A stretch of 64,000 bases of DNA, from the NCBI RefSeq assembly GCF_002847505.1, contig NZ_MXAV01000053.1:36857-100856 (forward strand). Direction: 5' to 3'. This stretch comes from Acidithiobacillus marinus. GTDB taxonomy: Bacteria; Pseudomonadota; Gammaproteobacteria; Acidithiobacillales; Acidithiobacillaceae. The position numbers and the translations under genes are program-made. The notes under the pieces were generated by a model, which was given only the letters and a program-made list of their open reading frames with translations, was not told where the DNA came from and did not search any database. Of the stretch, positions 1-54,311 are shown piece by piece (positions within the stretch are counted from its first letter, which is position 1; every line of letters begins with the position of its first letter).

Positions 1-616
1 GCAACCGGGGCACGACCGCTCCGGAATGTCCGGCCTTGAGTAAGGCGGCGATGAACTGCGGGTTATCGACGAGTTTGTTTACGCCTGCGGTCAAAAGTGC
101 ATTCGCTGATGCTGTTCTGCCCGCGCCTAAACTTACTGCGGTGTTATGATGAAAATTTTGAATATTTATATTTTCTCGGTAACCAGCAACTGGAACAGTT
201 ACTTGCATTGCGAGATGCCCTTTGTGCGTTATGTGCCATCCCATTTCTTCGGGCAGATAAAAGTGTTGCACGACCACCTGCACTTGCGTCCCTGTCCCGC
301 CGATGCTGAAACCCCTGCTGGCGAGCGCCTTCTCAATAGCGGCCTTGAATGCCTTGTCAATGTGCATATAGACACCGGCAAATGGTATGTTTAACTCATC
401 TTTTGTCCGGCTGATTTCATCATGCCGCTTCTTGTGGTTGTGCACGATGACCGTCACAGCCACGTTTTCAGCGCCGGGCACCTTGGTCATGCTGGCCGGA
501 GCTTTGTAGTGATTATGTACGGTGTCCGGGATATAGGCAGACGCACACCCCGCCAACCCGAACGCCCCGGCCAGCAAAGCTATTTTCGCGGTAATTTTTA
601 CAAGCTTTTTATCCAT
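1..616 (-). CDS. YajG-like lipoprotein, 3' end outside window
   Basis: Reading frame open from an ATG at 616 to the window edge, so the C terminus is missing. An AAGGA Shine-Dalgarno lies 8 nt before this ATG; an upstream ATG at 625 has poorer spacing. The N terminus is a lipoprotein signal: two lysines, a hydrophobic stretch and the lipobox LAGC near residue 24, so the mature protein should be lipid-anchored in the envelope. The body (AIEKALASRGFSIG, VQVVVQHFYLP) resembles the YajG/Lipoprotein_16 family pattern of a short alpha-beta domain. Function of that family is poorly known. It is followed downstream of nothing visible here; the next upstream genes are dinJ-yafQ. Family assignment is by eye only. 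Confidence 0.65.
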   Translation of the reverse strand, partial: MDKKLVKITAKIALLAGAFGLAGCASAYIPDTVHNHYKAPASMTKVPGAENVAVTVIVHNHKKRHDEISRTKDELNIPFAGVYMHIDKAFKAAIEKALASRGFSIGGTGTQVQVVVQHFYLPEEMGWHITHKGHLAMQVTVPVAGYRENINIQNFHHNTAVSLGAGRTASANALLTAGVNKLVDNPQFIAALLKAGHSGAVVPRL

Positions 617-3522: not shown

Positions 3523-3742
3523 TGGTTCTTCCACCGGCTTACAGCTGATACTAAGTTACAAAAGGACGCTTGGTGCAAAATTATACCGCCAAGCTTGGTG
3601 GAGATTGAAAACAACTGCCCAGAAAAATCGATGCCCCCGGGGGCGTGCTTGCGCAGAGGTCACACCGGGGGCTTGCTTTGATCGAATAATACTCCATGCC
3701 TTATTTTTGATCAAGCATGATGGATAAGTGTGGAGGATGATT
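3523..3742. other. Intergenic region with partial repeat of the upstream promoter
   Basis: No gene seen. The motif GCAAAATTATACCGCCAAG (about 3570-3588) nearly repeats GCAGAATTATACCACTAAG (about 2948-2966) ahead of the lipoprotein gene, so both may be promoter segments. A short imperfect palindrome CCGCCAAGCTTGGTGG overlaps it. The sequence then turns GC-rich and ends in the GGAGG that serves the next gene. Confidence 0.35.
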
Positions 3743-6691
3743 ATGTATTACCAAAGATACCGTAAGAAACATTCTGTGGCAGACAGGCTGCTGAGTCTAA
3801 GTTTCAACTTTTTACCAGCAAACTTGGTGCAGCAAATCATCGTTCATCGTCTCTCTTCTTTTGGTAGCTACGAAGAAAGAGAAATGGCCTACGGAGAGAT
3901 TACTTGTTGGTATTGGCTTGAGCCGAGGTACTACAACGAATCTATCGACTACGCGATTCAGGCTTTTAAAGGAACCGTAAAATTAGAAAACACGCAGTAT
4001 CGTGCTGTCAAATTACACTTTCAGGATAAGCGCGTCTTGGAGTCTATTGCCAACCTTGGTATTAAAGATGCCAATGATGTGAGTCTAATAATTAAAAAAT
4101 GGCAAGATACTCATTATGGTATTCCTCTCGATCTGCTACCTATTCTCGTTGAAAACAAAATCATTGGATCTGAGAACGATATCGATGATCTTGATGATCG
4201 TCGATTCTGTCGGTCTTTATATCCATTTTCAATTGATGGTGAAGATGAGAAAAATCTTGTTGAGAATATGTGCACGTTGAAAGATTATGGCGTGCCGATA
4301 GAAGATATAAGAAGGTCTTTGTCTCAAGATTTTTTTAGGTGTGGCGCTGATCGCCTTGTGCACGTTCTTGGAGCAATAGAGAATTGTGGAATAAAAATTG
4401 ATCCTGGATATGCTGATCTGTGTGATATTGTTTTTCATGCGAATATCGTTGCGATAGAGTTTTTATTCAGAGAGTTGAATGTCAATACCGCACCTGGATT
4501 AATGCGGTACCGTGATCTGCTTGAAGCGCATGATGATAATTTCAATGGCAATGTGATAAAGAGTTTGCGTGATATTGGCGTTTCTGATGATGATATACCG
4601 CGTTACCAAAGGATGATACATACAGACGTGGCTTGCTACCATGAAAACGATGCGATTGCTGGTCGCATCGTAGCGCTGTCACGCCCACCGTTTTCTTTAT
4701 CAAAGGATGAAATTCTTAAATGTGAAGATTACGTCATTGACAAGCGTTTGCCTTTTTTCGAGTTTATAAATATTTTTAAAGCACATTCTGTTACGGATTA
4801 TGGTTACTTATGTGCTCTTCACCCTTTTCTTCGTCATATATCAACAACTAACCTGGCGGCAATTTTTGATGTCCTCAAGAGTATTGTCGCGTTGGATCAA
4901 TACAAACAGGATGTTATCAACTTCGTAGAGAAATTTGTTTCTTTGAAAGGTAATATTCATAACTTGGCGTATCTGAAAAACAGGTTTTCCATCAGTGATA
5001 TCGAGACCTTCTCTTCATTGATAAAAATTTCAACGGTCACTGATAAGGTTTTGCAATATGCTTTGGAAAAACATGGTATTGGCACGGCCAGAGAGTTGTC
5101 TGACTGGTATTATCATGATGCGGTTGGCGTAAACTCTGTTGGAAGCCTGTATACCCTAGATCATATTGGGGATATCCTTCTGGATGATGCATTTAAAAGG
5201 AAAAGGTTTTTTCTTCTTACCCGCAACAACAATACTTTAGGTGAGGCTGTTTATCGCAACGGCATGGGAAAAGATAAACTAAATCCAGATACTGTGATTC
5301 TTATGCTGAATCTGACGAATGGGGTTATATTCCCTAGCTTGGTAAGTCACTTGTTTTGCGATGACCTTGATGCCTTACGATCGAGCATTGAACGCCTTGA
5401 CGTTATTGTTGAAGATCTTAAAACCGGCGACGGTCCAGCCAACAATGATCTTACTGATGATGAGGTGTATGGAATATCATTGGTTTTCAATATTTCAGAG
5501 GGCGAAATCCGTCGTGATTGGAGTGTAATTTCTGCCATTAAGGATAATACGATTTCGCCTGTTTCTGGTGGTTCTCATTATCGCATAGATACAAGATGGG
5601 TCCTTGAAACCTATAAAATGGTTGAAAACGTGCGCTTGGATGATGAAGGCTTCCGCGCCATTGCTAAGGCGCTGGATAGGGTCAATGAGAAGAGCTCCGA
5701 GGGTGTTAGCGCAGAAGATGGTTTGTTAGATGGTTTTCGATATAAGCATCTTAAAAACAATTCCGCCACCCCTATGGCTATATGGCCTTATCTGGTTTTA
5801 TTCATCTTTTTCATACCAGATTTTGCCGATAGGATTAAAATCATAGCTAGCGAGTTTTCGACGCATGACCTTTCTGATCATGGGCGTTACAAGCTCTTGC
5901 GTATGTGTGAGGAGGCATTTTCTCATTGGCTGTTGCAGGTTGTTCAAGATTTTAAGAATAACCTGTTAGATGAAATTAATTGTAATGCTGCTGTTCTTCA
6001 ATCGGTATTGCGCTCGTTCAGAATGGATATCAGTGCCTCCGGTGTTAGCCGGGTTGACAGGGATAATATGGGTGATGTTCTGGATACCGTTCTTAGAAAA
6101 TCTCAGCAGGTGTTTTTAGACTGGGTAGGTCGTGAAAAGAGGAAGTATTCAAAGTTAAATGCCACATCAGGAAATAATGATTACCCACTTTATTGCGTAT
6201 ATACTAAAACTCCTGCAGCTTTTTTTGCTAAAAGGAGCGCAGGCCTATGTTCTGCCGGAAAAACCAACCTTTGGACTTGCGCGTCTCACGCCCACTTGCT
6301 CGTTTTTGACCAACGGTCCCCGTTTCTGGTCGGCATGGTGTCAATATATATTGAAGAAATCCCAGAGGTCTGCCAAGGCAAAACACTTATTGTCAGGAAT
6401 CTTTCAATTATAGACAAAAAATCTGGTTACCACGCTGATTCTGTTGTCAAAAGTTACATTAGTGTGGCCCAGGAACTTGCTCTGCAGCTTGGTTGTGTGG
6501 CTGCTGCTTTCCCCGACCAAGCGGGTCAAGATTATTGTACGAATGATGATGATTTATGGGGTGCAGTAAAGAAGCGATATCGGCTTGGCGAAGATCGCCG
6601 CTCTATGACGCGTGTTCGGTTCAGCCCGTATAAAGAAAATGAAAACGAAGATATTTTAGTTTTTGTTTTTTGGCGTAAACCAACCGCTTAA
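3743..6691 (+). CDS. Large AT-rich orphan protein, function unknown
   Basis: I start at the ATG at 3743 because GGAGG lies 6 nt before it; a GTG at 3728 is also in frame. The 982-residue product is rich in Asp, Ile, Lys and Asn and is mostly predicted helix with no signal peptide. A hydrophobic stretch (AIWPYLVLFIFFIPDFA, about residue 685) could be buried or membrane-associated. The last ~130 residues (LLVFDQRSPFLVGMVSIYI, TLIVRNLSIIDKKSG, ELALQLGCVAAAFPDQAG) have a strand-helix order reminiscent of a GNAT-type acyltransferase, but I cannot confirm this. Base composition is clearly lower in GC than the operons around it, which suggests separate transfer. It converges on the topoisomerase operon, ending 15 bp away. 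Confidence 0.85.
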   Translation: MYYQRYRKKHSVADRLLSLSFNFLPANLVQQIIVHRLSSFGSYEEREMAYGEITCWYWLEPRYYNESIDYAIQAFKGTVKLENTQYRAVKLHFQDKRVLESIANLGIKDANDVSLIIKKWQDTHYGIPLDLLPILVENKIIGSENDIDDLDDRRFCRSLYPFSIDGEDEKNLVENMCTLKDYGVPIEDIRRSLSQDFFRCGADRLVHVLGAIENCGIKIDPGYADLCDIVFHANIVAIEFLFRELNVNTAPGLMRYRDLLEAHDDNFNGNVIKSLRDIGVSDDDIPRYQRMIHTDVACYHENDAIAGRIVALSRPPFSLSKDEILKCEDYVIDKRLPFFEFINIFKAHSVTDYGYLCALHPFLRHISTTNLAAIFDVLKSIVALDQYKQDVINFVEKFVSLKGNIHNLAYLKNRFSISDIETFSSLIKISTVTDKVLQYALEKHGIGTARELSDWYYHDAVGVNSVGSLYTLDHIGDILLDDAFKRKRFFLLTRNNNTLGEAVYRNGMGKDKLNPDTVILMLNLTNGVIFPSLVSHLFCDDLDALRSSIERLDVIVEDLKTGDGPANNDLTDDEVYGISLVFNISEGEIRRDWSVISAIKDNTISPVSGGSHYRIDTRWVLETYKMVENVRLDDEGFRAIAKALDRVNEKSSEGVSAEDGLLDGFRYKHLKNNSATPMAIWPYLVLFIFFIPDFADRIKIIASEFSTHDLSDHGRYKLLRMCEEAFSHWLLQVVQDFKNNLLDEINCNAAVLQSVLRSFRMDISASGVSRVDRDNMGDVLDTVLRKSQQVFLDWVGREKRKYSKLNATSGNNDYPLYCVYTKTPAAFFAKRSAGLCSAGKTNLWTCASHAHLLVFDQRSPFLVGMVSIYIEEIPEVCQGKTLIVRNLSIIDKKSGYHADSVVKSYISVAQELALQLGCVAAAFPDQAGQDYCTNDDDLWGAVKKRYRLGEDRRSMTRVRFSPYKENENEDILVFVFWRKPTA

Positions 6692-6706: not shown

Positions 6707-7714
6707 TTATTTTCTGCTTCCCGTCAGCCAATACCGCAAGGCACTCCACGACCATCCTTCCACCTGTATTTCCGGGATAAGGTCTTTGTATTCGTTGGCG
6801 TGTGCCGCAAGCCACCCCAGTCGCTTGTCGGCGCGTTCTGCATCTGAATAAACGGACCAGGCCGCATTGGTGCGGAGCATTTCTTTTTCTATTTTTGCTT
6901 TTAATTCGCGGAGAGGATGGTCTGGCTTCAGTGCGTTTTCAGGGTCCAGCCACGCCGGCAGTCCTTCGTGCCTGGGGATGCCCATATCTCCGAGTGCTGC
7001 GGCCTGTAACCCGGCTTCTCTGCCCAGCCCTTTCCATCTGGCGCACACGGCATCGATGTAATCCGTGGCCCCTTTTATTTTTGATGGGTCGGCTTGGAAT
7101 ATTTGCTCGCATGCCGGTCTGTAGCCGGTGTCTCCGTCTGCCACAGCTTCGATCAAAGTGGTCGAGGCCTCGGCGTTGCCGGTTAAGCCTTCTTCCAGCC
7201 ACCGCACAGTCTGTTCCAGCCCTGCGGGTAACAGGCGCCAAGATAAGCCTGTGGCATCTTGTTCTACCAGACTGGAAAGTCGGCCTTCGGCCAGACCTTG
7301 CAGTAACTTTGCCAAGGAAGCGGGTGTGCTGATGCCTTTGCGTGTGATCCCCTCGATCAGCGCGCCTAGCGGCACATAATCGCTCTTTTGGGTATATCCT
7401 CGCTTGATATGTAATTTGGTGATGTTCTGGGGTGGTGACGGGTTGAACGGGAAAGGCAGTCGCGGCCAATCCTTCCGGAAGTGCCAGTAACCTTCATGCT
7501 CAGGATCCGGGCTGGCGTAGTGTACGGCTATTTGCATATCGCCCAGAGGGTAGAGCGCTCGGGTGTGGCGCAATCTTGGCGGCGATAACGTGGCGGCCAG
7601 GGCACAATCCCATATCACCTGGTAAATTCTTCGGCGATCCTCCGGAATTGCTCTACTCAGGCTTTCCGGGTCCTGTTCCCAGTCCACAGGCTGAAGCATG
7701 GGGTGTGCGTTCAT
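6707..7714 (-). CDS. Type IA topoisomerase C-terminal part, separate gene
   Basis: 335 residues that match the part of a type IA topoisomerase that follows the catalytic tyrosine. The start AHPMLQPVDWEQDP stands where topoisomerases have AHEAIRP(T/V), then RRRIYQVIWDCALAA matches the D-x-x-(L/I)Y-x-(L/I)IW-x-R-x-(V/L)A motif. YVPLGALIEGITRKGISTPA resembles the ALI-x-x-L-x-x-x-GI-x-(R)PSTYA motif, followed by LLPAGLEQTVRWLEE (L-TP-G). There is no TOPRIM and no YxRT motif in this protein; those lie in the two genes upstream. The ATG at 7714 overlaps the TGA of the previous gene and has AAGGA 7 nt before it. Last gene of the operon. It would act as a subunit with 7711-8493 and 8947-13179 (inference). 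Confidence 0.8.
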   Translation of the reverse strand: MNAHPMLQPVDWEQDPESLSRAIPEDRRRIYQVIWDCALAATLSPPRLRHTRALYPLGDMQIAVHYASPDPEHEGYWHFRKDWPRLPFPFNPSPPQNITKLHIKRGYTQKSDYVPLGALIEGITRKGISTPASLAKLLQGLAEGRLSSLVEQDATGLSWRLLPAGLEQTVRWLEEGLTGNAEASTTLIEAVADGDTGYRPACEQIFQADPSKIKGATDYIDAVCARWKGLGREAGLQAAALGDMGIPRHEGLPAWLDPENALKPDHPLRELKAKIEKEMLRTNAAWSVYSDAERADKRLGWLAAHANEYKDLIPEIQVEGWSWSALRYWLTGSRK

Positions 7715-8493
7715 GAATTATCCTTATCCCCTGCGAATTGGGTTTTGGTGAGCCGCTGATACAGGGATGATTCTTGAACGGCGTCGAGCGTGAGATTCGG
7801 GATGTAGAATTGTGTGGCACCGCCTGGCATGACCATTTTGCCGCCGACGCTCTGCATTTTGGCATCTCCGATGAGCACATAGACCTTTTTTTTGAGCGTG
7901 AATACGACATGATATTCATCGCCATTCCACTCCTGAAGCACGGCCGTTTTCTGGTAAAACTCAGTCAGATTTTTGTATTGATTAGGTGACACTGGCTCGA
8001 AATACGGCCCGAGTGGGTGGTTTGTGGGTATCCCATATTTTAAGTTTCTTTCGTCCACGAAAAGGCCAATGGTTCGGTATATTTCTGTGTCTTCAGGAAG
8101 TTCTGAGAGGATGACGTTTCCTGTAAAATTCTTTAACACTTTATTCAGTTGTTCAACGGTAATTCCCAGTTTTGGGGATGCCTGTGCTTCCGATACGTTC
8201 AATTTCGCAGCTGCGTTGTGCCCATTATGTTTCGGTACGGCTCCTGGGTAATTTTTACCGGACTTCCATTCTTTCTCGCGGGCGAAACGCATATTCTCTG
8301 GAATCTGAACTGCCAGAGCTGCGGCTATGCGCACATATTCAGCCCGGCCGTTCTCATCCAGTGCGTCATACTGACAGCGCTCATCAGGATGGAGCACCTG
8401 GTTGGCGAGCAGGGGGTATCGCTTTCTAATAACCGCCCATGTCGGGGGTAAAATATGGGCTCCGCTGGTTCTGGAGTAAGTGGTTTTGCTCAC
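7711..8493 (-). CDS. Candidate topoisomerase IA catalytic-tyrosine subunit
   Basis: 260 residues starting at a GTG that overlaps the upstream TGA (GTGA). The extreme N terminus, SKTTYSRTSGAHI, resembles the type IA active-site motif (GLITYxRTDS-x-x-I). That would make Tyr6 the nucleophile and Arg8 its partner. The remainder is poorly conserved; KEWKSGKNYPGAVPKHNGHN may stand for the linker before the AHEAIRP region, which itself begins the next gene. The upstream helicase-TOPRIM protein ends at exactly the position that precedes this motif in normal enzymes. The assignment therefore rests on order and motif, not on overall similarity. If wrong, this is an unrecognised protein. Confidence 0.6.
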   Translation of the reverse strand: MSKTTYSRTSGAHILPPTWAVIRKRYPLLANQVLHPDERCQYDALDENGRAEYVRIAAALAVQIPENMRFAREKEWKSGKNYPGAVPKHNGHNAAAKLNVSEAQASPKLGITVEQLNKVLKNFTGNVILSELPEDTEIYRTIGLFVDERNLKYGIPTNHPLGPYFEPVSPNQYKNLTEFYQKTAVLQEWNGDEYHVVFTLKKKVYVLIGDAKMQSVGGKMVMPGGATQFYIPNLTLDAVQESSLYQRLTKTQFAGDKDNS

Positions 8494-8957
8494 CGGTTGG
8501 ACGCCTCTTCGCTATAGATGATTTTGACATCGGTGTGCATTCTGGTGAGCAGATTTTCCCGCTGCCCGATATTGCATTGAGCGAGTACCTCTGCCGCTTG
8601 TGTGCAGGTGTCGTAGTGTTCCGACAGGCTGCGGAAGCGGCTCCACCGGGATGACCATGCGATATCCAGTTGCGTTTCCAGTCCATGAATCGAGCGGGCC
8701 AAGGCACAGATCAGATCCAGTCGTTGCGCGTCGGTGGTTTCACCGCGAATGGCGCTGCCACTTCCGGGCAACTGACTCACCTGTTCAAAAATAGCGGCGG
8801 CGGCTTCCCACACCGGAGGCCCGGGGATCAAAAATCCTTGATCGAGCCATTGGTCAGCTTCCCGGCTGACCGCATCGCGCAGTGTTCGCGCAGCTTCTCG
8901 GGCTGCGGGTGTGCATTGCATGGCCAGGGCACAGAGGTTGGTGGTGTCATTCTCCAT
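8490..8957 (-). CDS. Small helical protein inside split topoisomerase operon
   Basis: 155 residues, mostly helical, Ala/Arg/Glu rich with scattered Cys (LCALAMQC, DLICALA, DTC, QC). No family recognised and no topoisomerase motif seen. The ATG at 8957 overlaps the end of the helicase-TOPRIM gene by 11 nt, and its TGA overlaps the start of the tyrosine-motif gene. It therefore lies at the position where the topoisomerase chain is interrupted, and may be a bridging or assembly subunit. That role is inference from position only. Confidence 0.75.
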   Translation of the reverse strand: MENDTTNLCALAMQCTPAAREAARTLRDAVSREADQWLDQGFLIPGPPVWEAAAAIFEQVSQLPGSGSAIRGETTDAQRLDLICALARSIHGLETQLDIAWSSRWSRFRSLSEHYDTCTQAAEVLAQCNIGQRENLLTRMHTDVKIIYSEEASNR

Positions 8958-11900
8958 CTTGCGCTCCTTGTTGGTACATAGCGTTCAGGTGCTCCTGTGC
9001 AACCCAGGGTTTGATGTGCAGCTCGTCGGCGGCCAGTGCCAATATTCTCGCGGTCGTGCTGGGCGGGTAGAGTCCCGGGATTTGCTCTGCATGAAAAAGG
9101 CCGTTTTGCGATAATGGTTTGCCACTTTCTGATAATGCCTGTGTGCGCTGCAGCCATTGCATCGCATCCTCTGCGGTGAAACGGGCAGGGCGGGCGAGGG
9201 TGCTGTTCTCGGTGACGAGAAACCCCGTCATGGCATTTTTATCCTGGTCTTCCAGTTGCACGGTGATGACCGTGTTTTCATCATCATTTCCACACATCTT
9301 CCCCAGTATGGTAAGGGCATCGCGTTGCTGGGCGCTGATGTAGGGCTCCGTCGGATAATATTTTTTGAAGTTTTCTTCATCCTGATGCCGGGCCATTTCC
9401 CGGAGTAGTGCGGCGGCCAGCATGTCCACATCAAAATCGCGGCAGGCGGTCTGGTAGGCGATTTGTAACTGGCGGTCAGTGAGATCGTGAAAACGCATAC
9501 GGCGGACGGGGAGGGCGGTACCCAATGCGGCAGCGGCCAGCTCGGCGGCCTGCATGCCGATCAGTTCGCCGGCCATGTCATCGTCGGTGGCAATCACCAG
9601 ATCATCCAGCAATCCCCGATGGGCGTGCATGGCGTACAGTACGCTTTTCGTGTTTTCTTCTATCGGGTCCCATTCCAGGCTGCCGTCAGGTCGTGGACGC
9701 GAAGTCTGGAGATAGCCTTTGGTGGCGATAACCGCGACGTTGCTGCCCAGGGCCTTTTGTATGGCGCGGGTTTTCCCGGGTGCCTCAATGACCACCAGGC
9801 TGCGCGGATACAGCCGTGTCCCGGCCTCACTGAGATATTGGCCGAGTTTGCCGATAGGGGTGTCCATCTGGTCGGCGTTCCGGATTCCCTGATCCGATAG
9901 AGTTGGTGCCAGCGTGCTTCTTTGCGCGAAGATGATAAAGCTGTCTTTAGCGCGGGATACGGCGACATTCATCATGAATCCTCCATCCCGGTCCGCAAAA
10001 AGGGACGGGCTGAGGCTGGCGTGCTGAACCAGACTGAACAGGACAATCGGGCGCTCGGCCCCCTGCAATCGGTGGACAGTTCCCACGATGAGCTGTTCCA
10101 GCGACTGGGCATCAATGACTCCCTTTAATCGCGCCTTTACGGTCTTCTGAGCGACTTCTGCCTGTGCGGCCAGCGGGGTGATGATGGCCAGTACCTGGTC
10201 CAACGGCTTGCCATAGGTCTGTGTGAGATGCGGGTGGATCTCCTTAATCCATTCAATCATGGCCTCAATTTCCGCCATATTCTTCCAGGAGCCGCCCGCC
10301 TTGGTTGGGCTTTTACGGGGATCTGTCGGGTGAATGTCTACCCAGGACATGGGCGGAATGCCAGAGGGGTTGGGTGTAGGCTTTCTGACCGGAATAATGC
10401 GGCCCTCGTACAGCAGTTGGTTGCAGTATTCGATGATCTGAGGATGGCAGCGATAGTGAAAAAGCAGGGTGACGCCTGCTTCTCCAGCGCCGTCTTCCAC
10501 GCCACAGGCGCGTTGAGCGGCCGTCATGCCGGATCCTTTGACGGGGTTGATGGCATCAGGCAAATCATCGGACTGCATGCCTGCTTTCAACGCCGTTTGC
10601 CGCACTGTGTCGGCGCTGGTCAATGTGTTGATAGGCTGCAGCTGTTTCGTATCTCCGACCATGATGGCTTTTTGGGCCAGCGCGAGGGTGCCTATGGCGA
10701 CTTCCGGCGCACACTGTCCCGCCTCATCCATGATGAGGAAATCGGCGGTGGCCCTTTTGGCCAGGTTCGGCAGTTTGTGGGTGGTGGCGACGATGATGAC
10801 CCCCAGCATTATGCACTCATGCACCCGCTGTTCGTCGGTTTTGCGCTCGTCGCTATTCTGAGCCAGCAGCCATCGGCCTTCCCAATAGCGGGCCGCGAGA
10901 TGAAAAAGAGGAATGCGATACTTGAGATCACAGTAAGACTCCAGGCGGCCGACAAGGATGTCTGTTGCGGTTTTGCGCTGTTGGGGATCCTTGCTGCTTA
11001 ACTGGACGACATAGCGGATGGATGCGCGTTCTCCCGGGGCTGGTTGGAAATACAGCATTTTCCGAAGCCGTGACCAAATTTGCCGGCGCATTTCCCGGTG
11101 GCCTTTTATCTGCTGGATGTTTTCTATGGTTTGCTTGTTTTCAGCAATCAGTTTGGCGCGGATGGAAACCAAGGTCGTCAGTGATGCCCTCAGCCGCTCG
11201 ATTTCGTAGGTCAGGGCTGATATTCCCGCAGGCCATTCGGCTGATACTCGGGCAAAAGCTTTGCGGCCTTCTGCGGCCAGGCTGTCGAGATCCTGTAAGG
11301 GCTGTTTCCACCACCAGTTTCTGATTTTTTGAGGAATGCGGGTGTGCCACGGTGTCATCAAGGACTCGTGGGCGTGGATAAAGCGTTCTCCCAGGTCCAG
11401 TGCGCGTTGATGGTTTTCCATGGCCTGCTGGACGCGCTGGATTTCCTGAATACGGGAAACTCGATCCTGGTCCAGCGCTCTGGGCTTTCCGGCGTTTTTC
11501 CGGGCGGCCGCCCAAACTGCCGGGATCTGGCGGGTGATCCATTCCTCGGCGTAATTTTGGGTGCGGTGTAGTGCGTGGGCCTGTTCTTCAATGTGCTGAT
11601 GCAGGGTGTCCACAATGCGCTTCACCGGGGTAAGCGGTGGCAACCCCAGTGCGTTGCGCCCGCGCTCCTGATAAATCGCTATCTGTTCACTGATGGGGGT
11701 GTCATGAAAGGCTTGCGCGGCCGCTCTCGGGGTCAATGGATTCTGGTCTGCCGAGGAGAATCGCAGTTGCATATATTGAGGATGTTCGGCGGCTGCCTTC
11801 TCGCTGGGATGGAACCAGCCGTAACTCGGGAGCCCTTGCAGCCAGCGGCCATTGATGGGGGATGGATCGCTGTTTTGTACGGATTCAAAGGCCTCGATCA

Positions 11901-13179
11901 TGTTACTGACGGCCTTGTTGGTGGCTCCGGTGCCGTACACCACAAAAGGGTGTGCAGCGGCGTCTCGTGCAGACTGTACCCAGAATGACGCTAACACCCC
12001 GCGCAAAAATGAGGTCTTTCCGGTCCCCGGCGGCCCGTTCACGGGAAGCACGCGTTCCTTATTCGTGGTGCCGGCCATGGCTACGGCGGTCACGGCGGCG
12101 AGCCGTTGTGAGGCGTCCAGCGGGTAGGCTTCTCGTTGCGGACTACCCTGCGTCTTGCGGGTATCCATGTGCCCGAGAAAAAGTCGGTGTGGTGCGTTCC
12201 CGATCCGGATCCCGTGTCTTGATGTGGCGTTCGGATGCCCTTTGATGACCGTGTGGACAGCCGGCGCCGGAATGACGCCTTCGATCACATCCTTGTACGT
12301 GTTCACCCACAATCCGGGGCGAATGTTTTTCTGGTCCACGATGAAAGGGGTAAGGTTGGGGGTACTGTTCCCCCAGATCATCGCCGGAAATTCGTGCAGT
12401 TCTCCCCCAAACATGGACCGGCAGCGCTGATCGATCTCCGCCATAAAGCCTTCCCAGCTGGAGAGCGCGGCCTGTGGCCAAACCTTGCTTATCGTGTCGG
12501 TGATTTTCTCTGCATCGTAATCGCCCAGGGCTTCTCCGTCTTTATTGAAGAAATGCTGGTCATTGACCGCCATGATGCTGTGTTCGGTTGGCCCGGGATG
12601 CCCTGGAAACGACCCGGTTTCTTCTTGTCTCAATGTGATGGAGAGCAGTACCTGATAACGGTCGCGGCCTTTCTTGAGGGCGAAAGCCAGCGTGGCCTCG
12701 GTGCAGTTTGGCACGCGGGGTGGCGGGTTTTTTCTCAGATACTCCAGGGCGATTTCTCGTTTTCCTTCGCTTTTTTCCAGACCCTCCATATCCTGCAGCT
12801 CGGCCATGTTGAGCAGGAACTTGAGCAAGGGAGGGGCTCCGGCTGCGATGCGTTTTCTTTCAGCCAGCACTTTCGCTATTTCCGGGACGTTTTTAAGCCA
12901 TTCCAACCATTCTGGAAAGTGGACTTTTTCTGCCGGTGGAGGTGCTGCGTCCCCGCGTGAGAGCCTTTGGATGGCCGCGCCGATGTGCTTTGTGAGGTAG
13001 TCTGAGGGCCCTTTGTTTTTTCGGATGGCATCCAGATACTGCGCGACAATGGCGTATTTGTGGGCAAAGTCCGGATCGTTGGTGACCGTTTCCGGTAGCG
13101 GCAACCTGAACGTCGCCAGGAAGTTTCCGGCATACCGCATGGTTTTAGTGGGGGATATGGATTTTTTTTCGTGGCTCAT
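8947..13179 (-). CDS. SF1 (Upf1-like) helicase fused to TOPRIM/topoisomerase IA N-terminal domain
   Basis: About 1410 residues from the ATG at 13179; a GTG at 13221 is also in frame and neither has a good Shine-Dalgarno. Helicase motifs in order: Walker A NGPPGTGKTS (about residue 381), a long helical insert (about 520-700), Walker B DEAGQ (about 818), GDTKQLQP (about 842), HYRCHP (about 908), GTVHRLQG (about 1033) and VAVSRAK (about 1073), as in Upf1/Dna2-type SF1B enzymes. A topoisomerase IA TOPRIM follows directly: VVIEAPGKTRAI (Glu about 1132) and ATDDDMAGE (about 1197-1205), then MRFHDLTDRQ and PPSTTARILALAADE. The chain stops at LNAMYQQG, just before the catalytic tyrosine motif would come. 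First gene of the operon. Cytoplasmic, ATP-dependent DNA or RNA remodelling expected. Confidence 0.9.
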   Translation of the reverse strand: MSHEKKSISPTKTMRYAGNFLATFRLPLPETVTNDPDFAHKYAIVAQYLDAIRKNKGPSDYLTKHIGAAIQRLSRGDAAPPPAEKVHFPEWLEWLKNVPEIAKVLAERKRIAAGAPPLLKFLLNMAELQDMEGLEKSEGKREIALEYLRKNPPPRVPNCTEATLAFALKKGRDRYQVLLSITLRQEETGSFPGHPGPTEHSIMAVNDQHFFNKDGEALGDYDAEKITDTISKVWPQAALSSWEGFMAEIDQRCRSMFGGELHEFPAMIWGNSTPNLTPFIVDQKNIRPGLWVNTYKDVIEGVIPAPAVHTVIKGHPNATSRHGIRIGNAPHRLFLGHMDTRKTQGSPQREAYPLDASQRLAAVTAVAMAGTTNKERVLPVNGPPGTGKTSFLRGVLASFWVQSARDAAAHPFVVYGTGATNKAVSNMIEAFESVQNSDPSPINGRWLQGLPSYGWFHPSEKAAAEHPQYMQLRFSSADQNPLTPRAAAQAFHDTPISEQIAIYQERGRNALGLPPLTPVKRIVDTLHQHIEEQAHALHRTQNYAEEWITRQIPAVWAAARKNAGKPRALDQDRVSRIQEIQRVQQAMENHQRALDLGERFIHAHESLMTPWHTRIPQKIRNWWWKQPLQDLDSLAAEGRKAFARVSAEWPAGISALTYEIERLRASLTTLVSIRAKLIAENKQTIENIQQIKGHREMRRQIWSRLRKMLYFQPAPGERASIRYVVQLSSKDPQQRKTATDILVGRLESYCDLKYRIPLFHLAARYWEGRWLLAQNSDERKTDEQRVHECIMLGVIIVATTHKLPNLAKRATADFLIMDEAGQCAPEVAIGTLALAQKAIMVGDTKQLQPINTLTSADTVRQTALKAGMQSDDLPDAINPVKGSGMTAAQRACGVEDGAGEAGVTLLFHYRCHPQIIEYCNQLLYEGRIIPVRKPTPNPSGIPPMSWVDIHPTDPRKSPTKAGGSWKNMAEIEAMIEWIKEIHPHLTQTYGKPLDQVLAIITPLAAQAEVAQKTVKARLKGVIDAQSLEQLIVGTVHRLQGAERPIVLFSLVQHASLSPSLFADRDGGFMMNVAVSRAKDSFIIFAQRSTLAPTLSDQGIRNADQMDTPIGKLGQYLSEAGTRLYPRSLVVIEAPGKTRAIQKALGSNVAVIATKGYLQTSRPRPDGSLEWDPIEENTKSVLYAMHAHRGLLDDLVIATDDDMAGELIGMQAAELAAAALGTALPVRRMRFHDLTDRQLQIAYQTACRDFDVDMLAAALLREMARHQDEENFKKYYPTEPYISAQQRDALTILGKMCGNDDENTVITVQLEDQDKNAMTGFLVTENSTLARPARFTAEDAMQWLQRTQALSESGKPLSQNGLFHAEQIPGLYPPSTTARILALAADELHIKPWVAQEHLNAMYQQGAQDGE

Positions 13180-16249: not shown

Positions 16250-17635
16250 TTATGCTGCATAGTTATATCCATCCTGCCGATGAATCGGCTTGCAAAAACG
16301 ATAGTGAATCCCATCTACCTTACCGGACGGCGTGACCATCTTGAAACTGCCTGTCTTGCGACAAGCCACACGGCCCTGATGGACGCCTGTTCTTTTACCT
16401 TCGGTGACCACCGCCCGCACCATATCCCCGGTCTGAAAGCCGAAGTAAACCTTCTGACGCGATTTGGGCTTCCCTCTCCTGAAACCAAAACGATCCACAT
16501 TGCACATACGCCTGTTCCCATATCCTGTTGCCGTGATCTGCAGTGGGCGCAATGCGGAATCCAAACGGACTTTCCCGCCAGATGCCCCGACACAAGCAGC
16601 GTCTATCCAGTGGGCTTTCGGATAACCCTGTTGCACCCGGTTAAATTTGGTGCGCCCACCCGTTCCCGTTTCTACCGGCAATCCCAAGGCCTGCAGTCGC
16701 TCAAACAGGATATGGCGGGTGGTATTGACCGCTGCGGCATCATTGAGGGGTGTCTTGGCCTGCTCCCGCACCCGCTCCAGCCGGTTTTGCTCATGCCGTT
16801 CCCGCTCTGCGCGTTTTTTTGGATCGTTGCCCGCAACTTGAGCCGCTGCTATCTGCCGTCTTTTCATCCGGTCGTTGTCGGTCTGCAAAAAGACTGATAA
16901 CGGCGCATGACCCTTCGCTTGATTGCAGGCGTGACAGGCGATGGCCAAATTGCGCACGCGGTTACTACCACCCTTGCTTCTGGGTTGAATATGGTCCACT
17001 TCCAGGGGCGCATCCGCGGTGTCGCAATAAGCGCACTTCCTGCCCCATTTTTCGAGCAAATACGCCCGGACTTCATATCCGAACAAGGTGCCCTGCTGGT
17101 ATTCAATACCGGAAATCTCCGGATTTTCCAGAGCCTGCATGTCAAAGCGCACCCGCTCCATACTGACATCTGTGATCGGCACCCAGCGCAAGAGACGCTG
17201 AAACCAGGTGATTACTGTCCGGACACGGTGCGTGATGGAGGGTGCCAACCAGCCTTTTGCGCGTGTACGATGGTCGTAACGCGGGGCACGGTAACGTGTT
17301 TTGCGAGAGCGACGGCTATGCCGCAGTGTGCGGCGTTTTTCCAATGCCTGATGGATGACCTGACCGCGATGTGCCAGTTCCGCCGCCCAGATAACCGTAG
17401 GTCCACGGCGGGCAAACTCGGCAACGACAGCTATCCCCGTCGTTTTACTGCCAGGGTCCGTCTTGGTGGTGATGTGCTGTGTGGCACCGCCTTCCCGGTC
17501 TTTCAGGATAAGGGTGAAAGGAAAACGGCGAAACACCGCCGCTTTGCCTGCTTTCAGTAGCGCCCGTGCCCGTGCCGGATGGCAGGGCATGAGCGGCTGC
17601 TTGTTTTTGTCCAAAACTAAAACTCTGTTTTGCAT
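16250..17635 (-). CDS. iscB: IscB RNA-guided HNH/RuvC nuclease
   Basis: 461 residues from the ATG at 17635 (AAAGG upstream). The frame stays open for another 89 codons, but that stretch is the non-coding RNA and left end. Domains: N-terminal PLMP domain (NKQPLMPCHPARARALL, about 11-27), RuvC-I TDPGSKTTG (Asp60), arginine-rich bridge helix (RRTLRHSRRSRKTRYRAPRY, 101-120), RuvC-II VSMERVRFD (Glu160), HNH domain with CAYC (201-204), LEVDHIQPRSKGG (His215) and CHAC (234-237), then RuvC-III HWIDAACVGAS (Asp345). All nuclease residues look intact. IscB is the family ancestral to Cas9 and uses an omega RNA; here that RNA should come from 17636-17885. Confidence 0.93.
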   Translation of the reverse strand: MQNRVLVLDKNKQPLMPCHPARARALLKAGKAAVFRRFPFTLILKDREGGATQHITTKTDPGSKTTGIAVVAEFARRGPTVIWAAELAHRGQVIHQALEKRRTLRHSRRSRKTRYRAPRYDHRTRAKGWLAPSITHRVRTVITWFQRLLRWVPITDVSMERVRFDMQALENPEISGIEYQQGTLFGYEVRAYLLEKWGRKCAYCDTADAPLEVDHIQPRSKGGSNRVRNLAIACHACNQAKGHAPLSVFLQTDNDRMKRRQIAAAQVAGNDPKKRAERERHEQNRLERVREQAKTPLNDAAAVNTTRHILFERLQALGLPVETGTGGRTKFNRVQQGYPKAHWIDAACVGASGGKVRLDSALRPLQITATGYGNRRMCNVDRFGFRRGKPKSRQKVYFGFQTGDMVRAVVTEGKRTGVHQGRVACRKTGSFKMVTPSGKVDGIHYRFCKPIHRQDGYNYAA

Positions 17636-17885
17636 ATCGCTACCTTTTTCAGTCTTGGCCTTTTCAGGGGCCAGTAAAGTGTGCCTCGCCCATGTCCAGG
17701 GTGCTTGTTCTGTCGCCCGCCTTCGCCGCACCCCCAGGTACGACAGCATGACTGACAACGGCAGTGTCTCGGAACTGGCTCGCATTCCGGAGTGCCATGA
17801 CACCTTGAACGTAGCGGATTCGCACCGCTTGGGCTGGTCATGAATCGGGACTCCTACAAGCCCCCTGCCTTTAGGCATGGGGTTC
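17636..17885 (-). ncRNA. Candidate omega RNA of IscB
   Basis: In known IscB loci the omega RNA lies directly 5' of iscB, and its guide is copied from sequence just outside the left end. Here 250 nt separate the left-end hairpin from the iscB ATG. They are GC-rich, capable of several stems, and contain no plausible separate gene. The guide would be the bases just above 17885-17900, that is, the flank toward the 17918 gene. Boundaries are not determinable by eye. Confidence 0.7.
17862..17882 (-). repeat. Left-end hairpin of IscB element
   Basis: Stem-loop CCCCATGCCTAAAGGCAGGGG on the minus strand, almost identical to the right-end hairpin. It probably also forms the 5' part of the omega RNA scaffold, since the guide lies immediately upstream of it. 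Confidence 0.75.
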
Positions 17886-17917
17886 ATGACGATGTTATCC
17901 ACAGAAATTGTGCATAA

Positions 17918-36673: not shown

Positions 36674-36955
36674 GTGATAACCTCCTTTTTTACACATTTC
36701 TATCATAGCACGGCAAGCTATAGTGAGAAACTCCCTACTGAATGAAAGTAATTTTCGCCAGGGCGCGTTGTGCCCGGCGCCCCTGCCCCTTTGGATGTCT
36801 CTCTATATGGTTCCTACTAGATGAAATCAATTATTTTATCTAGTAGAATGATCCATAGCCTTGGTCGGTACCCCTTAAAGCGCCGTGCCGGGCGCTCGTT
36901 CGATAGAAACGGGGCCTCTGTGCCTACTGAAACGCTGGAATTTTGGAGGTTGGTG
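36674..36955. promoter_or_regulatory. Divergent regulatory region upstream of recombinase 2
   Basis: About 280 bp without a convincing gene, between the minus-strand unit and recombinase 2. It contains a GC-rich stem-like stretch (about 36757-36785, GGGCGCGTTGTGCCCGGCGCCC) and the dyad listed separately at 36814-36846. The recombinase frame is open back to 36821, but the good ribosome site marks the start at 36956. Confidence 0.45.
36814..36846. promoter_or_regulatory. Dyad upstream of recombinase 2: candidate core site or operator
   Basis: Arms CTACTAGAT and ATCTAGTAG (9 bp, perfect), extended inward by AAAT/ATTT after one G-T mismatch, around a central CAATT. So about 14-bp arms with a 5-bp centre: the geometry of a tyrosine-recombinase crossover site. 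It lies 110 bp before the recombinase start. A similar dyad precedes recombinase 1. Confidence 0.5.
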
Positions 36956-37888
36956 ATGAAAGAACCCGCTTGGGACGAATCGCGCTTGTCGCGCTGTTTC
37001 CCGCATGTTTCTGCATCTTCTGCGAAGTTGTATAAACGGCATGTTTGGTGGTTTATCCGCTGGCTGGCCGCACAGAAACAATCCCCGCTAGATGGCTCTG
37101 CTTTGCTGGTTTCTGCTTATATTGCAAAAATGCGGGATATGCGCGGCTGGTCTGTTTCTACGGTAAACCTCAGTCATGCGGCTCTCGTATCTTTTTATGA
37201 CTATCTGATCGAAAGTGAATTGTGTGTGGATAATCCAGCCAGGGCCGCTTTCTTTGATAGACGACGCTCTCGCCAAAGAGCACCCAAAAGATTGCCCATC
37301 ACGCTTTTTGAAGCGGAAGAAAAAAAGCTCCTGGAGCATACTCGGGTGTTCCCTCACCCAGAGGGCATGACATTCACCACCCTGCGGCGTTTTCAGTTGG
37401 TCCGGTTGCTCTACTTCACCGGATTGCGCGTCAGCGAGGCGATTCATCTGAAATTAGAGGATCTGGCCCTGGAGAGTACCCACCCGACGCTGCGTGTGAT
37501 CGGCAAGGGGGACAAGGAGCGCGAAGTCCCGTTGTGCGATCAACTCCAACAAGAGCTGTTGGCGTATGTAGAGATCCGCCAGGCCTTTTTGGTGCGGCAT
37601 CGTCGTTGCCAGCCTGATGCGGTGGCCTGGCTTTTTTGTGATGCGCTGGGCGCCCCGTTCACGGCAGGTGGCGTGCATTACATGGTTTCTCAGCTTTTTG
37701 AGAGCTTGGGTTTTACGAAAAACCGAATGGGACCGCATGTGCTCCGGCATACCTTTGCGACGCGCCAGTTCCGTAACGGCTGTCCGCCGGCAGTAGTTAA
37801 GATATGGCTGGGGCATCAAAGTCTGGCCACTACCCTGTCTTTTTATGAGCATGTCGCTGAGGGTGGCGGGGGTTTACGGCCGGCTTGA
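36956..37888 (+). CDS. XerC/D-type tyrosine recombinase 2
   Basis: 310 residues from the ATG at 36956, chosen because GGAGG lies 6 nt upstream. Core-binding domain (LYKRHVWWFIRWLAAQKQSP) and catalytic domain with FTGLRVSEAIHL (Arg), GKGDKEREVP (Lys), HVLRHTFATRQF (His-x-x-Arg), IWLGHQSLAT (His) and LSFYEHV (Tyr). All catalytic residues are present. Clearly related to recombinase 1 but not a recent duplicate. Possible role in integration, dimer resolution or cassette movement. Confidence 0.92.
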   Translation: MKEPAWDESRLSRCFPHVSASSAKLYKRHVWWFIRWLAAQKQSPLDGSALLVSAYIAKMRDMRGWSVSTVNLSHAALVSFYDYLIESELCVDNPARAAFFDRRRSRQRAPKRLPITLFEAEEKKLLEHTRVFPHPEGMTFTTLRRFQLVRLLYFTGLRVSEAIHLKLEDLALESTHPTLRVIGKGDKEREVPLCDQLQQELLAYVEIRQAFLVRHRRCQPDAVAWLFCDALGAPFTAGGVHYMVSQLFESLGFTKNRMGPHVLRHTFATRQFRNGCPPAVVKIWLGHQSLATTLSFYEHVAEGGGGLRPA

Positions 37889-43562: not shown

Positions 43563-45364
43563 GGGGTCGCTTCAGGAAACGGAATTTAAAGTACGTTAAG
43601 CTCCCGCGAAGGGCCGCAGCGACCGATATTTGCCCTGCTTGAGCTTGGCGCTCCGCCGCCACAGGTAATCCCCCGTCAGATTGATGTGTTCCCAGCCCAG
43701 GGGAGACAAGTACTGCAGCAGCGTTTCGTTGACCACTTGCCCATGCTCCTGCAGGGCGCTGACTGCCCGCTCCAGGTACACGGTATTCCACAGCACGACA
43801 GCCGCCGTCACCAGATTCAAGCCGCTGGCTCGGTAGCGCTGCTGTTCAAAGCCGCGATCCCGGATCTCCCCCAGCCGGTTGAAGAATACTGCCCGAGCCA
43901 ACGCATTGCGGGCCTCCCCCTTGTTCAGTCCCGCCTGCACCCGCCGGCGCAGTTCCACGCTTTGCAGCCAATCGAGGATGAACAGCGTACGCTCGATGCG
44001 CCCCAGTTCGCGCAGGGCCACCGCCAGACCGTTTTGACGCGGATAGCTGCCGAGCTTCCGGAGCATGAGTGAGGCTGTCACGGTTCCCTGCTTGATGGAT
44101 GTCGCCAAGCGCAGGATATCTGCCCAATGGGCGCGGATGATCTGGAGGTTCAGGGTGCCGCCAATCATCGGTTTGAGGGCGTCATATCCGGGACTGTCCT
44201 TGGGCAGAAACAGTTTAGTTTCCCCCAGATCCCGGATCCGCGGTGCAAAACGAAAGCCCAGGAGATGCGTCAGCGCGAAGACATGATCCGTGAAGCCGGC
44301 CGTGTCCGTGTAGTGCTCTTCGATCCGCAGATCCGACTCGTGGTACAGCAGCCCATCGAGCACATAGGTCGAATCGCGCACGCCGACGTTGACCAGCTTG
44401 CTGCTGAACGGTGCGTATTGGTCGGAGATGTGGGTGTAGACCAGCCGCCCGGGCTCCGCCCCATACTTCGGATTGACGTGCCCGGTACTCTCGGCCTTGC
44501 CACCGGCGCGGAAGCGCTGACCATCCGATGACGAGGTGCTGCCGTCCCCCCAATGCGCGGCAAAGGGGTTGCGCAACTGCGCGTTGACCAGTTCGGCCAG
44601 GGCCGTCGAGTAGGTCTCGTCGCGGATGTGCCAGGCCTGTAGCCAGGACAGCTTGGCATAGGTCATGCCGGGGCTCGATTCCGCCATCTTGCTCAATCCC
44701 AGATTGATGCCGTCGGCGAGAATGGCTGTCAGCAACAGGGTCTTGTCCCGGGCCTCATCGCCGTTTTTCAGGTGCGTGAAGTGGCGGGTGAATCCGGTCC
44801 AGGCGTCTACCTCCATCAGCACTTCAGTGATTTTGATGTGCGGCAGCAACGCCGCTGCCTGATTAATCAGTGCTTGCGCTGCGTCCGGCGCCACCGCATC
44901 CAGCGGGGTTATTTTCAGGCCGGAGTCCGTGATGATGGCATCCGGCAGGTCATCGGCGGCCGCCAGCTGATGGGCACTGGCGAGCTGCTGTTCCAGGAGC
45001 GCCATGCGCTCCTGCAAATAGGCTTCGCAGTCGGTGTTTACTGCCAGCGGCAGGGCGCCGGCCTGAGTGAGATCATCGAACCGCCCGGCGGGGATCAGGT
45101 AGGTGTCAAAATCCTTAAACTGGCGTGATCCCTGCACCCAGATATCGCCGGAGCGCAGGGCATTTTTGAGTTCTGACAGGGCGCACAGCTCGTAGTAGCG
45201 CCGGTCGATACCGTCCCCGGTGACCACCAGTTTTTTCCAGCGCGGCTTGATGAATCGGGTCGGGGCGTCAGCGGGCATTTTGCGGCCGTTGCTGTCATAC
45301 AGGTCGCGGATCACTTCGATGGCATCGAGCAGGTCTTGGGCCGCCGGCGCGGCCCGCAACTTGA
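43563..45364 (-). mobile_element. Tn3-family transposon remnant (older element)
   Basis: A 38-bp Tn3 inverted repeat lies at 43563-43600, starting GGGGTCGCTTCAGG and ending GTACGTTAAG. The tnpA gene behind it is cut off at 45364, where the inverted repeat of a second Tn3 begins. The other end, the tnpA 5' part and any resolvase are absent from this side. Confidence 0.88.
43596..45364 (-). pseudogene. tnpA: Tn3 transposase, 3' 60 percent only
   Basis: About 590 residues of a roughly 1000-residue Tn3 TnpA remain. Recognisable: [32 protein letters not shown] (first catalytic Asp region), [20 protein letters not shown] (second Asp) and [20 protein letters not shown] (Glu). The DDE triad may survive, but the N-terminal DNA-binding part is gone. 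The apparent first residues [14 protein letters not shown] are translated from the inverted repeat of the neighbouring Tn3. Only about moderately similar to the second TnpA, so they are different elements. Confidence 0.9.
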
Positions 45365-45397
45365 GGGGTTTGAAGTCCAACGGAACGAAAACGTACG

Positions 45398-48300: not shown

Positions 48301-48403
48301 ATTCATCCAGGTGAAAATAACGGGCCAACTGAACTTCATTCGGTTCGCCAGAGAATTGGCCATAGCTGATTTTCTGTTCCGAGGCTAAAAAATCGACGGG
48401 CAT
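45398..48403 (-). CDS. tnpA: Tn3-family transposase
   Basis: 1001 residues from the ATG at 48403 (GGGGAG upstream; a TTG at 48415 is in frame). Full-length TnpA: N-terminal DNA-binding part [30 protein letters not shown], and catalytic region with [13 protein letters not shown] (Asp), [20 protein letters not shown] (Asp) and [20 protein letters not shown] (Glu). The stop lies within the inverted repeat, as usual. Replicative transposase acting on the 38-bp ends. Confidence 0.97.
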
Positions 48404-49140
<737 letters not shown>

Positions 49141-53501: not shown

Positions 53502-53519
53502 AAACAAGTCCCCTTGCGG

Positions 53520-53818
53520 TGATACCCGCTACGTCTAGTGGATTACCTCATTACAGGGGGTTCCTGTAAAAGCTATCTACCACCACCATCGGTCCATGAT
53601 AAACGTTAAGGCCAACTACAAGGTCAAGAGTGTTTTTTGTGTTAGGACTACACGTTCTGTCACTGACTGACTAATACAATTCCGAAAACATTTTCGACTT
53701 GAAACTGAGGAGAAGCGAGTTTGACCATTTCCTCACAACGCCCTCCATGTGCTCTGTTTTACATTTTTTAAAAATGTTGTCAGAGTAGTTACTCTGATTG
53801 AGATCTTCTGGTCGAGTT
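53520..53818. promoter_or_regulatory. Divergent copA / cus regulatory region
   Basis: 300 bp with no gene. On the minus strand there is a promoter-like pair TTGACC (53627-53622) and TATCAT (53601-53596) with an unusually long 20-bp spacer. Such a spacer is the mark of MerR-family (CueR-like) metal-activated promoters. Imperfect repeats ACCTT/CCTTAACG lie in it. No regulator gene is in the window. Confidence 0.45.
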
Positions 53819-54241
53819 ATGTTAAAACTTCGCCGCTACTTTCGTTCGCTGGCAATATTGTCCTTGTTCCTTATTGGAACCTGGATGAGCAATGCTGCGG
53901 TGGCGATGCCACAGGGTATATCCTGTGTTGAAATGCACGGGATGTCCATGATGGGGATGTCCATGGCGAACATGCCCTATTGCCGGGATAACCCCGGCAT
54001 GGACATGCGGATGATGAATCCCCATTCCGAAGCGATGAGTAGTCAGTGCATGGCGATCTGCGCTGAGACGCATGCGCCAGGCGGATTGCGCTTTTCTGGA
54101 ATCTCTGTGCAGACTCCCATGTGGATTGGTTCTGTGACATGGACCCGCTCTCAGTTTGTCGCGAAGGATCGTCCCAGTTTTTTCCTCCCTGAATCCTCTT
54201 ACCATCCTCCACCGCTTCTTCACATACGATTGACCCTTTAA
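53819..54241 (+). CDS. Methionine-rich exported protein
   Basis: 140 residues from the ATG at 53819. Signal peptide (FRSLAILSLFLIGTWMSNAAVA) then a Met-dense stretch: MHGMSMMGMSMANMPYC, NPGMDMRMMNPHSEAM, with Cys (ISCVEM, QCMAIC) and His. Such sequence binds Cu(I). Likely a periplasmic copper buffer placed ahead of the cusCBA-like genes. No named family is certain. Confidence 0.75.
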   Translation: MLKLRRYFRSLAILSLFLIGTWMSNAAVAMPQGISCVEMHGMSMMGMSMANMPYCRDNPGMDMRMMNPHSEAMSSQCMAICAETHAPGGLRFSGISVQTPMWIGSVTWTRSQFVAKDRPSFFLPESSYHPPPLLHIRLTL

Positions 54242-54311
54242 GTTCTCCTCAGCAAGTGGGCACTCCTTTTTTCAAAGGAGATAATGTCATTGATTTGCTA
54301 TGGAGATTTTC

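Follow-up and report, generated by a model that had tools for sequence, protein, structure and literature searches.

A Mokosh-type helicase joined to part of a type IA topoisomerase that is split over several genes, with the tyrosine motif on a variable toxin-like protein

Background

Several described systems join a helicase to an effector or to a topoisomerase, and they form the natural background to the four-gene operon that we report here from Acidithiobacillus marinus (contig NZ_MXAV01000053.1, positions 36,857 to 100,856 of the forward strand, a 64-kb stretch referred to throughout as the window). MkoC of the Mokosh type II defence system ends in a nuclease of the phospholipase D (PLD) kind, PLD being listed among the domains of the system in PMC10952713. 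Hachiman and Gabija, which invite comparison for the way they work, also pair a helicase with an effector and, in Hachiman, the sensor helicase is reported to restrain its nuclease. Reverse gyrase joins a superfamily 2 helicase and a whole topoisomerase IA in one chain, and TopA and TopB are single chains as well; enzymes of this type can act on DNA and RNA, according to PMC7587558. Finally, the polymorphic toxins (the Tse6/TNT NADases, or the HNH toxins with SUKH immunity) place exchangeable toxin-like C-termini behind a common N-terminus and are accompanied by small neighbouring genes.

The operon resembles each of these and departs from each. Its helicase part, of superfamily 1 (SF1), matches MkoC, but carries a TOPRIM domain and topoisomerase pieces in place of the PLD nuclease, and the system adds two further proteins and a toxin. 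With TopA and TopB it shares the TOPRIM glutamate and DxD, the YxRT motif, the histidine motif and their order along the profile, whereas it consists of three chains rather than one, bears its tyrosine on a toxin-like protein and mostly lacks a glutamate as the third TOPRIM acid. It has the common N-terminus, exchangeable C-termini and small neighbouring genes of the polymorphic toxins, except that this common N-terminus is a catalytic segment of a topoisomerase. As in reverse gyrase a helicase is joined to topoisomerase IA parts, yet here the helicase is joined to TOPRIM and the rest lies on other chains; identity with reverse gyrase was rejected, the score being 19.7 bits against a cut-off of 471.7 and gene 1 matching only SF1 families and TOPRIM. 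Hachiman and Gabija have other effectors and no split topoisomerase. The arrangement was not described among the matches listed by a full-text literature search, although most subscription papers and preprints lay outside its scope and priority is unproven; to our knowledge, a topoisomerase with its tyrosine on an exchangeable toxin-like protein fits no recognised kind. Judged from sequence, the helicase belongs to a known defence family.

Results

The operon and its features

All four genes of the operon lie on the minus strand and are coupled, with successive overlaps of 11, 4 and 4 bases. The original prediction, made from the letters of the window and a list of its reading frames, had described three overlapping genes; the overlaps are real but the genes are four, the 155-amino-acid (aa) gene that runs from 8957 to 8490, between the fusion gene and the YxRT gene, having been missed. 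The features, with the evidence for each, are as follows.

8947..13179 (frame open from 13221), minus strand: gene 1, SF1 helicase (MkoC-like), TOPRIM and the topoisomerase IA portion preceding the tyrosine; open reading frame, Pfam, protein search, PADLOC
9829..12135, minus strand: helicase part of gene 1, residues 363-1131 of the 1424-aa frame, corresponding to MkoC 244-964 of 1136; 467.6 bits
9484..9798, minus strand: TOPRIM domain, residues 1142-1246 (VIEAPGK, ATDDDMAGE); Pfam 28.7 bits, cut-off 23.1
8490..8957, minus strand: gene 2, encoding 155 aa and assigned to no family, a candidate for immunity to the NADase-like toxin; open reading frame, Pfam, relative in the Spartobacteria locus (L006, below)
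7711..8493, minus strand: gene 3, 260 aa, YSRT tyrosine segment followed by a toxin-like domain; open reading frame, protein search
8467..8478, minus strand: codons Y6-S7-R8-T9, presumed catalytic tyrosine and arginine; sequence
7729..8211, minus strand: predicted Tse6/Tne2/TNT-like NADase domain, residues about 95-255 of gene 3; predicted structure, fold
6707..7714, minus strand: gene 4 (topoC), 335 aa, topoisomerase IA portion following the tyrosine, presumed catalytic His 4; open reading frame, profile

The frame of gene 1 runs from 13221 to 8947 (1424 aa). Counted from residue 15, at position 13179, it comprises 1410 aa, as does database record P0005; the gene probably starts there.

The same three pieces in eleven loci

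The product of gene 1 matches the Pfam families AAA_12 (74 bits), AAA_11 (63.5 bits) and Toprim (28.7 bits), which bears out the predicted SF1 helicase-TOPRIM fusion that stops just short of the tyrosine motif: its last residues are LNAMYQQGAQDGE, against LYEAGLITYMRT at this place in the ordinary type IA profile. A search with the TOPRIM part found 25 database proteins of 1209-1489 aa, the window's own included. In an alignment of 26 fusions (the window's, P0001 and 24 others) all stop soon past the end of the LYxxG-type helix that precedes the tyrosine in ordinary topoisomerases, those of the Polaromonas type being some 15-25 residues longer at the C-terminal end, and the TOPRIM glutamate E1146 is invariant (26/26). 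Both aspartates of DxD and the GE that follows are kept in 34 of 34 fusions.

We compared eleven loci: the window, Polaromonas JS666 plasmid 2 (L005), and loci from Spartobacteria (L006), Lysobacterales (L007), Azonexus (L008), Gluconobacter (L009) and Oxalobacteraceae (L010), together with L046 and L047 from two genomes of one genus, tentatively Pseudomonas, L057 from the same genome as L010, and L062. Every one of them has a helicase-TOPRIM fusion ending just short of the tyrosine, a YxRT frame, though with an uncertain start codon in L009, and a protein with the catalytic histidine motif; this motif (AHEAI-like) lies near the start of topoC, or past the tyrosine piece in L008. As the same three pieces recur in 11 of 11 loci, chance is a poor explanation, and a fortuitous YxRT was rejected. 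Among database relatives of the YxRT protein, 78 of 82 matches keep the motif within the first 15 residues, so the loss of YxRT in relatives, on which the prediction might have foundered, did not occur.

The position of the toxin gene relative to topoC varies. It lies between the fusion and topoC in the window, L005, L006, L007 and L057, as if a topoisomerase gene in decay had been broken by an inserted toxin-immunity cassette, of which L008 resembles a cassette-free version. However, the break points are identical and the frames intact in 11 loci, and in L009, L010, L046, L047 and L062 YxRT is still present on a toxin gene placed after topoC, an outcome that simple insertion does not give; we therefore regard such a decayed gene as very improbable.

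A helicase of the Mokosh type

MkoC was the top PADLOC model for all six fusions tested, at 433-569 bits (window 467.6, L057 569.4, L062 433.1, L009 546, L046 553.4 and P0001 524.2), and in none of them did the best-matching stretch extend beyond MkoC position 965 of 1136. MkoC is matched over its full length, at 1229.6 bits, by a TOPRIM-free homologue from a Yoonia plasmid. Three TOPRIM-free plasmid homologues, that of Yoonia included, end in PLDc_2 (22.3 bits, below the cut-off of 27, 49.1 and 34.5 bits), their helicase cores being 28-30% identical to that of the window, and a Pfam scan found no PLD in the window proteins. From these PLD-ended homologues we conclude that the TOPRIM-topoisomerase part stands at the place of MkoC's PLD.

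Order along the type IA profile

A custom profile was built from 34 single-chain type IA topoisomerases, with the tyrosine at position 296 and the histidine at 343. On it, nine of the eleven fusions span 3-4 to 290-293, the shorter two being those of the window (3-143) and L008 (3-187). TopoC begins at 338-342 in seven loci, at 359 in L006, 363 in L010 and 443 in L062, and scores at least 20.8 bits in L009, L046, L047, L010, L057 and L062. The most canonical locus is L057, with a TOPRIM reading ATDDDREGE and a topoC of 86.6 bits over 213-408 of PF01131. In the window, the 335-aa gene (7714 to 6707) starts MNAHPMLQPVDW (NAHPMLQPVDW) and has the predicted IYQVIWD and GISTPA motifs; it matches Topoisom_bac at 213-353 with 21.9 bits, below the curated cut-off of 35.1.

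The place of the YxRT pieces between the fusion and topoC parts is shown by the Azonexus locus, where a single natural gene of 425 aa (MSGVSSYPRT...VVLKDMHAHPM) runs straight from the tyrosine piece into the histidine protein; it matches PF01131 at 157-383 with 28.2 bits, below the cut-off, and the custom profile at 292-551 with 32.7 bits. In the canonical relatives, then, the pieces correspond to successive stretches of a type IA topoisomerase, and the split that had been proposed stands in that TOPRIM, tyrosine and histidine pieces lie on three proteins; the alignments support a distribution of the catalytic classes (TOPRIM acids, Tyr/Arg, His) over these three.

Another contig of the window's genome (C63) carries, at 865-2061 on the minus strand of L003, a 398-aa topoisomerase-IA-like protein with ISYPFS at the place of YPRT (PF01131, 26.3 bits), possibly a degenerate topoisomerase.

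Toxin-like C-termini and their partner genes

The 260-aa gene (8493 to 7711) starts MSKTTYSRTSGAHI, with YxRT as had been read, although the reading of it as a topoisomerase piece overlooked that most of the protein is toxin-like: residues about 95-255 are toxin-like in fold and match no topoisomerase, and modelling predicts for them the NADase fold of Tse6/TNT. R140 and Q228, candidate catalytic residues, are invariant in 8 of 8 sequences and remain so with L057. Neither this protein nor that of 155 aa has a Pfam match above cut-off. The 155-aa protein, of which L006 holds a relative (32% identical), would be the immunity protein for the NADase-like toxin. Pfam scans found no known trafficking domain; a signal or secretion search was not made.

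Elsewhere the C-termini behind YxRT are NADase-like (L057, as in the window), HNH (four loci), a non-specific nuclease (Endonuclea_NS_2, L010) or unclassified (two). A SUKH-like gene adjoins the HNH toxin in 4 of 4 HNH loci, and the usual role of SUKH proteins is immunity. A maximum-likelihood tree was computed from 37 helicase cores, those of 34 fusions and of three MkoC, without L062. On its well-supported branches a minimum of two changes is required for the HNH label and likewise for the NADase label; L057, L010 and P0026 are long branches, and the placement of L057, hence the second NADase origin, is unsure. L007 and P0028 count separately in the tree, and in the survey of the third TOPRIM acid below, despite identical helicase cores. 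The toxin types thus appear to move between helicase lineages, unsurely for the NADase, a case that rests on L057.

Three further observations concern these proteins. The YPRT proteins at 7529-8851 of L062 and 9801-10871 of L009 have C-terminal parts without a Pfam family and are candidate new toxin types. One Oxalobacteraceae metagenome-assembled genome (MAG) holds two systems, the NADase-like L057 and the Endonuclea_NS_2 type L010. P0069 (431 aa) joins a helicase N-terminus to an HNH part, and is possibly a product of assembly or deletion.

Distribution and surroundings

Two of 398 genomes of one genus have the fusion, and these two also have YPRT-HNH; none of the 398 has one without the other. 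The fusion is present in one of 29 genomes of the window's family (its own) and, in three further genome sets, in the centre genome only (1/30, 1/199 and 1/59). It reaches at least two phyla, Pseudomonadota and, going by how the 9-kb MAG contig L006 is labelled, Verrucomicrobiota; so rare and scattered a fusion suits an accessory, moving system.

The Polaromonas copy is on a plasmid typed as conjugative (MOBH, MPF_T) and, with toxin-immunity pairs being typical of competition, the system could be a conjugation weapon in which the toxin, attached through its tyrosine to the strand being transferred, is led by that strand into the recipient, much as DNA is piloted by relaxases. Two loci, however, are on apparent chromosomes (G642 C1, 6.3 Mb; G276 C1, 4.1 Mb) and the helicase is of a defence family, and we find this account improbable. 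Next to L057 are a GajA-like gene (331 bits, its frame partial) and a GajB-like gene (360 bits), and L010 adjoins an MkoA-like helicase (329 bits); the few neighbours tested at the other loci mostly had no match.

A search of genome contigs gave seven loci, of which L006-L010 are fusions and L011 and L012 single-chain topoisomerases. In a phylum search 288 of 398 genomes matched; among the matches listed, frames of ordinary length were taken as TopA and, of the three longest besides the window's, that of G276 is a fusion and those of G238 and G313 are not. Single window proteins as queries against viral contigs and against genome contigs gave no useful outcome, and a 666-aa frame from viral contigs (L013) was taken for an ordinary topoisomerase. 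With tblastn, topoC had two weak topoisomerase matches on plasmids and the YxRT gene none, and the TOPRIM part had no match in phages.

Around the operon, the window holds the following.

3728..6691, plus strand: 987-aa protein, encoded convergently to the operon; nothing in Pfam at E <= 1
16250..17902, minus strand: IscB-like RRXRR-HNH protein; 238.8 bits to RRXRR
17674..17890, minus strand: HEARO/omega RNA of IscB; 117.5 bits
20939-21901, 36821-37888, 43596-48415, 50991-60068 and 62841-63872: accessory region with two phage-type integrases, two Tn3 transposase frames, a P-type metal ATPase and Cus-like efflux operon, and an IS110 transposase

Discussion

Because the tyrosine protein also bears a predicted toxin that varies from relative to relative, the cluster is likely to be a defence system. 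The explanation we favour, at about even confidence, is a Mokosh-type helicase whose nuclease end has been replaced by a three-protein type IA topoisomerase with YxRT on an exchangeable toxin, which would form an anti-invader complex that holds or tethers the toxin on nucleic acid. The order of the pieces, their common break points, the MkoC-like helicase and the changing C-termini behind YxRT can be read directly in the genes; catalysis, tethering and a role in defence are what we infer from them. In such a complex the helicase would sense foreign or stalled nucleic acid; the TOPRIM of the first protein, the Tyr/Arg of the toxin and the His of the third would meet in one composite site; and attack by the tyrosine would leave the toxin joined to the end of a strand, after which the toxin would deplete NAD (window) or cut nucleic acid (relatives), with the immunity protein guarding uninfected cells. 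Either DNA or RNA could be the target, since type IA enzymes can work on both. It is possible, though we put it forward only tentatively, that the toxin is itself the catalytic subunit: the helicase would lend the TOPRIM and the third protein the histidine, and the toxin's tyrosine would attack the invader strand, leaving the NADase or nuclease covalently attached to the foreign DNA or RNA. A composite site of this kind would accept any toxin that begins with YxRT, and the toxin would therefore be exchangeable.

On the reading of the original prediction, the proteins would instead be a machine for strand passage, driven by ATP and similar in effect to reverse gyrase, in the service of the topology of a mobile element; the additional domain of the second protein would then be incidental. 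Helicase, TOPRIM, Tyr and His pieces are all present, one relative is on a conjugative plasmid, and integrases and transposases lie near the window operon. That proposal nevertheless fits poorly with exchangeable toxin-like domains on the tyrosine protein, immunity-like genes, a helicase of the Mokosh II kind and a third TOPRIM acid that is mostly not Glu, and we consider it unlikely.

A number of results weigh against the favoured explanation as well. The chief caveat concerns the third acid of DxDxE: in the window it is replaced by Ala (ATDDDMAGE) and, among 34 fusions, this position is Glu in three (L046, L047, L057), Asp in six and non-acidic in 25. In the profile search of the pieces the fusions and topoC map in order, but topoC is weak in the window (11.0 bits), L006 (5.6), L007 (3.8) and JS666 (-2.1); four YxRT pieces align at 291-316 with at most 0.7 bits, too short for significance, those of L006 and L062 align elsewhere and the rest do not appear. 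The Azonexus locus lacks a toxin and has its topoisomerase parts in two frames, against three elsewhere; the AlphaFold2 model of its 425-aa protein has a mean confidence (pLDDT) of 48.7, and in the window model residues 1-23, which include YxRT, are under 50. Kinship of the 155-aa gene of L057 with that of the window was rejected (1.4 bits, where shuffles reached 6.0). The neighbours of the window operon (transposons, integrases, metal efflux) are not a clear defence island, and the 987-aa neighbour matches no PADLOC defence model.

With the third acid lost, one has to reckon with poor religation or with a complete lack of catalysis; we may speculate that poor religation would even fit a trap meant not to let go. 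The loss of this acid in the window and most relatives and the weak topoC of several loci would also suit docking without catalysis, in which the YxRT segment only docks the toxin into a catalytically dead topoisomerase-like scaffold, by which the toxin is silenced until the helicase senses an invader; toxin-immunity pairs suit such control of release. Against it, TOPRIM E, DxD and YxRT are kept where the remainder has diverged, the His motif is present in 11 of 11 loci, and L057, L046 and L047 keep DxDxE. Docking of this kind seems to us rather unlikely.

Conclusion

The loci provide a type IA topoisomerase divided by nature into three separable pieces, and YxRT at the extreme N-terminus is a sequence signature by which further toxin-like genes can be sought. 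If the favoured explanation of a toxin-bearing split topoisomerase on a Mokosh-type helicase is true, this would be an enzyme that depends on an interchangeable toxin to complete its active site, and it would add a new branch to immunity of the Mokosh type; how the effector of a sensor helicase is directed or let go would become testable through the attachment of the toxin to nucleic acid by its tyrosine.

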